Source: Opisthocomus hoazin
Lineage: Eukaryota > Chordata > Aves > Opisthocomiformes > Opisthocomidae
Length of the DNA stretch: 64,000 nt
Assembly: GCF_030867145.1 (NCBI RefSeq)
Contig: NC_134428.1
Location: 25,337,537 to 25,401,536 of the forward strand
Direction: 5' to 3'
In this document: piece after piece, positions 28,410 to 31,400 of the stretch
How positions within the stretch are numbered: the first letter of the stretch is position 1
How the letters are laid out: each line of letters begins with the position of its first letter
The notes under the pieces: generated by a model
Database searches by the model: none
What the model was told of the DNA's origin: nothing
What the model saw: only the letters and a program-made list of their open reading frames with translations
Translations under genes and position numbers: made by a program

Positions 28410-31400
28410 TTACTCGGGGAGGTAATAGAAGCAGATGGACACGCAAACGTTGCTTGGGAAGCAGATGTCGATGCAAAGGTAGATCAGCCGCTGCTTCCCC
28501 GGACCTGCCAAGCGAGCGAGGAGAGAAGCAGGGTGAGGAACGCGTCTGCAGTCCTGCAGAGCCGAGTCTGGAAATGTGGCCGGGAGGTGCAGGGACAAAA
28601 CGGGGTGGGGGGCGGCGATCAAAGCAATGCAGTCTCGTGTTGCTTACAAATATCTGCAGGGTGGGGGTCAGGAGGACGGGGCCAGACTCTTCCCAGTGGT
28701 GCCCAGCAACAGGACAAGGGGCAACGGGCACAAACTGAAGCAGAGGAAGCTCCAGCTGAACCCGAGGAAGAACTTCTTCCCTCTGAGGGTGACGGAGCCC
28801 TGGCCCAGGCTGCCCAGGGAGGCTGTGGAGTCTCCTTCTCTGGAGATATTCCAGCCCCGCCTGGCCGCGGTGCTGTGCCCCCTGCTCTGGGTGACCCTGC
28901 TTGGGCAGGGGGTTGGGCTGGGTGACCCACAGAGGGCCCTTCCAGCCCCAAACATTCTGTGATGCTGTGATTCTGTGTCCCTGGGGAGCCAAGCATGTGG
29001 GAAGCCCCAGGGAATGACCTGTCTCGTTAAGGCTGGAGTCAAACGGAACCGAAGGAGAGCTCGGCAGGCTGCTTTTGGTGGAGATGAAGGCGGTGAGCGT
29101 TAAGCCAACAGCGTCGCAGGGGACTGCTCTGTGCCGTGCAGGCAGGCTGCGCTGCCGGGGACGGGGGTGAGAGCCCTTCCCAGCCCGCGCCGCAGTTCAC
29201 TGCGCGTTGTGGGCACGAGCCAGCGCTTGGCAGTCGCCAAACAACGGTTTGATGGTGACCTAGAGGTCACCTGTCCCTGTCCCCGTCCCGTGCAGCAGCT
29301 TTTGCGCAGCAGAGCCTGCGCCTCGTAGACGTGCGAGAAACAACCGCGCCTCCCTCTTCTGCAAAGCGACGCGTACAACTTACCGTCCCCCCTCCTGACC
29401 CGGAAGATGGCCGTCTGCTCGCAGAGGGCCTGGACGGCCTCCCCCAGGCTGCCGGGGTCCACCCGCTCCCCCGCCACGATGCCCAGGAACTCCCGGTAGT
29501 ACTCGGTCTGGTTATTCCGAGGCAGCAGCTGCTCCGCCTGGAAGAGATGGCCCCGTTAATTCCTCCCAGGGCGCCTGAGGAGCGGTCTCTACCCCAGCAG
29601 CCGTGCCAGGCGTCACCAGAGCCCGCGGGCAGAGGAGCATCGGCCGGACCCACGCCTGCCTGCTGCCAGCCCCGGGGCTGTCAGGGGGGCTTGTGAGAAA
29701 GACAGGGACAGACGTTTCAGCAGGGCCTGTAGCCATAGGAGAAGGGGTAATGGTTTAAACTAAAAGAGGGGAAAGTCAGACTAGATTTAAGGAAGAAACT
29801 TTTTACATGGAGGGTGGTGAAACCCTGGTCCAGGTTGCCCAGAGCGGTGGTCGATGCCCCATCCCTGGGAACGTTCCAGGCTGGGTTGGACGGGGCGCGG
29901 AGCAGCCTGGTCCGGTTGAAGATGTCCCTGCCCACGGCAGGGGGTTGGGACTGGATGGCTTTTAACGGTCCCTTCCCACCCAAACCGGTGTCTGATTCTA
30001 TTCTATGAGTCTGTGGTCCAGCTGCATCACAGCGGCGGTGCCACGGCAGCCCTGTCCCCTCACCACGCACAGCGGCCGAGCCCCCAGCGCCGCGTGTGAC
30101 ACAAATCAGCCCCGTGGTGGCTGGGCTGAGGCTCCTCACTGCCCGGTCCCTGTGACGGCCAACTGGGCTGCCAGCAGCCCCAGCACCACCAACGCTGTCA
30201 TTTCCGTTAAGGAACCTCAGAGCCCGGCAGACGCTCGCTTCTCCTCGCATCCCGGTCGGTGGCCCGCTCTCGTGGGTGCCGTGTTCCCGCGCTCCTCCGG
30301 GCTCATCGCTGCCCCGCGCTTCCCGGCTGGGTGGGAGCGGCAGGAGAGGGCCCAGGAGCCCCCGAGGAAACGGAGAGCAGATGGCAGGGGCACAAAACAT
30401 GGGGCCTTCTGTCTTCTTGAAACAGAATCTGCCCATGCCCACGCATCCATTAGCATTTTGTTCGGAGGGTCCGCACACAGGATTTACTTCAGCTTCTTCC
30501 CCCGGGAACTGCTAACAAACCCCCTTTGTTTCCCATTCCCCAGAACTCTGAGCAGGTAACAGAACCCAGTGGGAGCAGGTCCTGCTGTTCCCCTCCGTGG
30601 GACCCGTCCCCCTCCCCAGCCTGCAGCTCTGCCGTTTCTCACAAGATAAGGTGTCGGTAAAACCGGGAGTTGCTGCTCCGAGCTTGCACGCTGAGAGCCC
30701 AGCGCCGTACGGCAGAGCTCTGCTCCAACGCAAGGCGCCCAACGAGCCCTCCCTCGAGCAGCGAGTCGCCCAGAACGGGGCTGCTGCCCCTGTGCCCCCG
30801 TTTCGCCACGCCTGGGGTGCTGCCGTGCGAGCGTCACCGCCGCGGACACAAACCCACGTGGGAAAGGGCCTTTGGCGAGCCGGGACCCCGTGCCAAGCCC
30901 CGCTCATCGCCCCGTCCGCCCAGCCACCCCGGGGAGCCGCTCGCTCACCCTCTGCCCCGACGCGCTGAGAGCCGGCTGGAGGGTCTGGCGGTCCCAGGCG
31001 TCCATCGTCCTCAGGTAGCAGGCGCGCCGCTCCGCCGGCTTGTAGCACACGTAGCCCTGCGAGACGGAGCGTGCCCCGTTACGGCGGGCAGCGGCGCGCA
31101 CCCGCGGCTGCCTCCAGAGCCCCGACACCGACATTCCTCCTTTTGCCCTGTGTTGTCTTCCCCAACTAGAGAGAGGCACCACACCATAGCTGCTTGACTT
31201 TTTCCCCGGTCTGCACCTCCCGCTCCCGCCCCAGCAGCTCTTCTTGCAGCAGCCCGGGCTCCTCTGCTCACTTCCGCGCTAACGAGGCAGCTAATTACCC
31301 CAGCACACTCACGTTCCTGCTGTCGTACAGCACCACGGCGCTGTGGTTACTCCGCGAGGTTACGTAGTAGGTCACGGTGCTCCTGGCCTGGTCCACCAAG

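Follow-up and report, generated by a model that had tools for sequence, protein, structure and literature searches.

The C-terminal tail of hoazin BRICD5 as a probable hairpin client of its own BRICHOS domain, preceded by a furin-type basic motif displaced from the family cut position

A beta-prone client at the C-terminal end is the rule for BRICHOS proteins, with proSP-C as the exception (PMC2751770, and the covered parts of PMC9714404 and PMC10182729). In the part of their survey covered here, Sanchez-Pulido and Ponting (2022) locate the mature polypeptide of BRICD5, and of every other human BRICHOS protein except proSP-C, at the C-terminal end, and model these C-terminal polypeptides in the BRICHOS groove for all but three (PMC9714404); the tails are described, in that part and in the covered part of a further paper, as hairpins lying in the groove of face A (PMC9714404, PMC10182729). 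For human ITM2B, the covered sections of two papers describe a cut that releases the hairpin (PMC10932164, PMC9714404), and models place the cut site in an exposed loop between the BRICHOS domain and the hairpin (PMC10932164), while for human CNMD the covered portion of the source gives RERR at 215 as a furin site (PMC6841647). Two-disulfide hairpins derived from polychaete BRICHOS precursors are antimicrobial according to the covered parts of two further papers (PMC10745061, PMC8953592).

The closest described counterpart of the tail considered here is that of group C in Hedlund 2009 (n = 11 in Table 2, leaving aside an insertion of 30-odd residues that three sequences carry), which from fish to man has a pairwise identity of 87%, versus 51% in the BRICHOS region of the same group, is predicted to form strands and has moderate transmembrane scores, and which carries four strictly conserved C-terminal cysteines, the last statement being made of LECT1, TNMD, and group C jointly (PMC2751770). 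By elimination, group C would be BRICD5, because BRICD5 is the remaining human family in later lists and the hoazin tail has the properties of group C. Among the human BRICHOS proteins, BRICD5 itself has received little study: the part of the BRICHOS literature covered here gives no function for it; its isolated BRICHOS domain did not bind tau in the pull-downs reported in the covered part of PMC13237185; and an asthma paper, in the part covered, merely labels it as proliferation-linked (PMC10542610). The limits of the human BRICHOS domain are printed, in the source parts covered, as 89-195, as 62-195 (core, PMC9714404), and as 85-193, in a human numbering that may be offset from the hoazin protein.

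In Opisthocomus hoazin, BRICD5 is found on the minus strand of the window, by which we mean the whole stretch of 64,000 nucleotides that was analysed (contig NC_134428.1, positions 25,337,537 to 25,401,536). It has six exons, which when spliced and translated give 226 residues, with GT donors at exons 1 to 5 and AG at the acceptor ends of exons 2 to 6. Its features, in window coordinates, are the following:

33976..34014, minus strand: exon 1, residues 1-13 with the start codon, from splicing and translation
32040..32171, minus strand: exon 2, residues 14-57, carrying the hydrophobic anchor (best 19-residue window from residue 30)
31313..31465, minus strand: exon 3, residues 58-108; the Pfam BRICHOS match starts at residue 97
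30949..31056, minus strand: exon 4, residues 109-144, with BRICHOS cysteine C121 and the extra C112
29384..29537, minus strand: exon 5, residues 145-195 and the first base of codon 196, with the end of BRICHOS and C183
29391..29402, minus strand: RVRR, residues 190-193, where the BRICHOS domain ends, and the sole RxxR in the protein
28410..28504, minus strand: exon 6, the last, residues 196 (part) to 226 and the stop
28488..28499, minus strand: GKQR, residues 198-201, whose R201 stands 5 residues ahead of the first hairpin cysteine, like the P1 Arg of ITM2B
28422..28484, minus strand: predicted beta-hairpin, residues 203-223, with cysteines 206, 210, 216, and 220 and the turn 211-215 FPSNV (AlphaFold2, single sequence)
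28024..28029, minus strand: AATAAA, candidate polyadenylation signal, 381 bases beyond the stop

Past the 3' end of BRICD5, on the opposite strand, stands a WD-repeat gene that we take to be MLST8 (732 bases from stop to stop), and upstream of BRICD5 stands a HAD-type hydrolase gene, presumably PGP. At human 16p13.3, MLST8, PGP, and BRICD5 are among six genes at most 20 kb from one SNP, as given in the covered part of the source (PMC4740877). Elsewhere in the window, a short imperfect repeat is strung into a long array at positions ~650-1850, where the frames repeatedly read CPSQLDI or HHSWTPQ. Two minus-strand regions farther along lack a Pfam match, namely a single frame at 10361-11653, in which we assume a resemblance to the start of CASKIN1, and mixed exon and intron frames at 16186-16971 and 17537-18166, in which we assume a resemblance to a hexosaminidase D-like gene (HEXD).

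The BRICD5 protein has one Pfam domain, BRICHOS (PF04089), at residues 97-189 (E 5.5e-16, 59 bits versus a cut-off of 25). In phmmer alignments, which are weak (E 0.2), its D105, C121, and C183 face an Asp and two Cys of proSP-C, and F189 falls two residues short of the ends of the proSP-C chains; by this match, RVRR would come where the last strand ends. No BRICD5 orthologue turned up among the collections of prokaryotes and viruses that were searched. A hydrophobic anchor is predicted from the sequence near the N-terminus, where hydropathy over 19 residues peaks at 2.34 from residue 30. Cysteines number seven in all, at 112, 121, 183, 206, 210, 216, and 220; C112 (exon 4, window 30949-31056) would be left unpaired if 121-183, 206-220, and 210-216 bond, and could link two molecules.

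A preliminary description had predicted that this protein ends in a four-cysteine peptide released by furin, and the spliced translation bears out the layout on which that idea was built: RVRR stands at 190-193 and is followed by 33 residues to the stop, cysteines occupy positions 206, 210, 216, and 220 of this tail, and exon 6 nearly equals the peptide, beginning in codon 196, which is split by the intron as exon 5 ends in phase 1, and coding 31 of the 33 residues (codon 196 partly). The pattern CX3C-X5-CX3C is likewise present, although the symmetry that had been seen in it is hardly informative when taken alone, since any two CX3C motifs are symmetric. The suggestion of a disulfide-linked beta-hairpin has gained support, as the hairpin is predicted with good confidence, its disulfides being putative: AlphaFold2, given the last-exon peptide alone (31 residues, no alignment), builds strands at 203-210 and 216-223 with a mean pLDDT of 88.9 (86.8-88.9 over five models), while the sole control, the 51-residue exon 5 peptide of BRICD5, which was folded in the same way and had been chosen for another purpose, gave 59.0. 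In the hairpin model, the strand ends pair at i+j=426, which is also the sum of both cysteine pairs; C206-C220, C210-C216, and F211:V215 share this value, which fixes a single register whose turn has three residues, PSN (P212-S213-N214), so that both disulfides would fall at the same pair type and on one face. The other face is all hydrophobic or aromatic, with I203, L205, I207, I209, and F211 on one strand and V215, V217, I219, F221, and Y223 on the other. In this register the disulfides C206-C220 and C210-C216 would be nested.

The beta propensity of the tail is the highest among all 24-residue stretches of the protein, and its net charge is -1 over residues 194-226 or 0 over 196-226. A nested, same-face cysteine layout with a loop of 2-5 residues arises in 351 of the 40,920 placements possible in 33 residues, and the probability of finding at least four of the seven cysteines within the last 33 of 175 residues is about 0.025; the hairpin draws stronger support from the published family conservation and the structure model than from such chance statistics. 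That the beta-prone tail serves as a BRICHOS client, as had been proposed, is well supported, agreeing both with the family rule and with the peak in beta propensity. The tail had also been put forward as possibly undescribed, and here the literature decides otherwise: a near-invariant, four-cysteine group C tail is already in Hedlund 2009 and a C-terminal mature polypeptide in Sanchez-Pulido 2022, so that its role as a client has, in outline, been published before, and it is mostly a known family feature. Group C and hoazin BRICD5 have in common a near-invariant tail, four conserved cysteines, and predicted strands, with no tested difference between them; the Hedlund text is without a cut site, a disulfide pairing, or an exon comparison with the ITM2 genes. 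What is newly added here is the register of the hairpin and the finding that the basic site is shifted away from the family cut position, and the observation is both real and biologically sensible.

The consensus for furin is RX[KR]R, with RXXR as its minimal form. RVRR is a full consensus and the only [RK]xxR match in BRICD5; random 22-residue sequences, as long as the segment that separates C183 from C206, contain a motif of the form RX[RK]R in 1.6% of cases when drawn with the composition of residues 52-226, versus 14% of shuffles of the whole of 52-226. The paralogues ITM2A, ITM2B, ITM2C, and CNMD were taken from the same hoazin genome, and positions were counted from the second BRICHOS cysteine as 0. 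The names ITM2A (L009, L010), ITM2B (L006), and ITM2C (L005) are our assumption, given from sequence features, and the CNMD (L013) and TNMD loci were located with a probe sequence; no BRICHOS exons of TNMD were recognised in the genome stretch examined. Two other BRICHOS exon matches in the genome (L001 and L003 on contig C28) lie about 14 kb apart on opposite strands and are, presumably, gastrokine-like.

A phase-1 intron follows the second BRICHOS cysteine in all of the genes compared, at +13 in BRICD5, +16 in ITM2A, ITM2B, and ITM2C (donors checked for ITM2A and ITM2C), and +15 in CNMD. The three ITM2 genes have a common layout, with the split codon at +16, an Arg at +20, and the first hairpin cysteine at +25, which in ITM2B reads CRGKETYKLQRKEAMK-G-IQKR-EAINC past the second BRICHOS cysteine. 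In BRICD5, the first hairpin cysteine is at +23, and five residues back from it stands R201, the last residue of GKQR; an Arg in this place is found in 4/4 genes that have such a cysteine in the compared stretch. ITM2B thus resembles BRICD5 in having a BRICHOS domain, a phase-1 intron after it, a cysteine-bearing tail in the last exon, and an Arg 5 residues ahead of the first hairpin cysteine, but differs in the tail itself, where ITM2B, whose human peptide has 23 residues, has one cysteine pair, 17 apart, and BRICD5 has two, 14 and 6 apart. CNMD and TNMD share with BRICD5 the C-terminal CX3C motifs, which in CNMD include a CX3C-X15-CX3C, whereas their last-exon stretches hold eight cysteines each against four in the BRICD5 tail, with a long linker in CNMD.

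The published ITM2B cut is taken to fall after IQKR, on account of its KR pair, that is, at the Arg matching R201 of BRICD5, where GKQR offers neither RXXR nor a dibasic pair. No strict RX[KR]R occurs in the ITM2A, ITM2B, and ITM2C stretches compared, though ITM2B is cut, so the missing consensus at GKQR is by itself no proof against a cut there. RVRR, in turn, stands at +7 to +10, before the intron and 8 residues ahead of where a family-type cut would fall, and aligns with RLQRR in ITM2A, KLQRK in ITM2B, and RLERR in ITM2C; residues at both +7 and +10 are basic in 4/5 genes, CNMD being the exception. What BRICD5 has beyond ITM2A, ITM2B, and ITM2C in this domain-end patch is R192, which completes the consensus, and among the five paralogues compared RX[KR]R occurs in only BRICD5 and CNMD, with the difference that RNKR of CNMD, at +23 to +26, lies beyond its intron at +15 and RVRR before that at +13. 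The view of RVRR as a cut of the family type finds no support in this comparison, since the known site (ITM2B) and the presumed ones (ITM2A, ITM2C, CNMD) follow the phase-1 intron and RVRR precedes it. Neither can the match between last exon and peptide, which had been counted in favor of cleavage, be kept as evidence: the intron is common to ITM2A, ITM2B, ITM2C, and CNMD, and the near-identity is a matter of family gene structure, not a separate argument for cleavage at RVRR. RVRR also overlaps the printed human domain limits (89-195, 62-195, and 85-193) and adjoins the Pfam end at 189, and the model of its exon, with the pLDDT of 59.0 given above, is of too low quality to inform on the exposure or flexibility of the site.

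Taken as a whole, BRICD5 is quite probably an ordinary type II BRICHOS protein whose tail, a two-disulfide hairpin, is the client of its own BRICHOS domain. The last 31-33 residues would fold as a beta-hairpin with the turn P212-S213-N214 and two nested disulfides, which in the precursor most likely packs on the BRICHOS sheet, by analogy with models of other members, with the short loop RRGDGPGKQR joining the two. RVRR would then be the basic patch common with the ITM2 proteins, raised by one extra Arg to a full furin consensus, and it may have become a cut site or may be structural; we hold the two readings that follow, a cut moved to RVRR or a hairpin kept by BRICD5, to be nearly equal.

It is possible, and we put it forward tentatively, that furin or a related enzyme cleaves the protein behind R193, which would free a 33-residue secreted peptide. 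The full consensus at the only RxxR of the protein, the G- and P-rich stretch behind it, the restriction of RX[KR]R to BRICD5 and CNMD among the five paralogues, and the precedents of the ITM2B cut that frees a hairpin and of RERR in human CNMD, in the source parts cited above, all point this way, although RVRR sits at the very end of BRICHOS, unlike the ITM2B site, which models put in a loop beyond the domain, and is set off from the family position by the intron and by a shift of 8 residues upstream; moreover, the part of the BRICD5 literature covered here reports no cut site, isolated peptide, or product. Scarcely less conceivable is a tail that is never released: BRICD5 would be a membrane protein whose hairpin stays attached and covers the BRICHOS domain as a lid, with RVRR in a structural role. 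The overlap of RVRR with the domain end would fit such a lid, as would the lack of a dibasic pair in GKQR, at the ITM2B cut position, and the presence of basic residues at +7 and +10 in ITM2A, ITM2B, and ITM2C as well, of which ITM2B is cut elsewhere; yet with R192 the patch suits furin better in BRICD5 than in the ITM2 proteins, RLQR of ITM2A and RLER of ITM2C are still minimal RXXR sites, so that the patch could be cut there too, and the best studied BRICHOS members are processed, according to the covered part of PMC10182729. A more elaborate form of release, which we consider unlikely as a whole, would have BRICD5 give off an undescribed, near-invariant and near-neutral hairpin with two disulfides, which once secreted would serve as a signal or as a matrix peptide; one source would be the supporting cells of the inner ear, for which BRICD5 is a marker, and the cut would have moved 8 residues upstream onto the BRICHOS end, such that release would need the domain to open.

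Two further readings fare much worse. A tail that enters the membrane, as a second segment or a re-entrant loop, is improbable: its 19-residue hydropathy of 1.86 from residue 202 is the highest outside the anchor, and group C has moderate transmembrane scores (Hedlund 2009, PMC2751770), but the stretch contains four cysteines together with D208, P212, S213, and N214, a strand is predicted for group C in the same paper, and the AlphaFold2 model is a confident hairpin. A membrane-active host-defence hairpin is more improbable still: capitellacin and the HfBRI peptides of polychaetes resemble the tail in having a BRICHOS precursor, a basic site, and a two-disulfide hairpin, and they are antimicrobial, but they are cationic, and a near-neutral tail with the charge of -1 or 0 given above makes such a role unlikely.

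If group C is BRICD5, a tail identity that tops Table 5 of Hedlund 2009 and is higher than in the BRICHOS region of the group means that the tail is likely the functional part. The paralogue comparison supplies the residues by which the two fates could be told apart, the new N-terminus being G194 if RVRR is cut and L202 if the ITM2-like position is used, and a hairpin in the inner-ear epithelium, secreted or membrane-held, is a testable idea, no more. An answer to whether the hairpin is released or docked would show if vertebrates have a conserved peptide that was overlooked.
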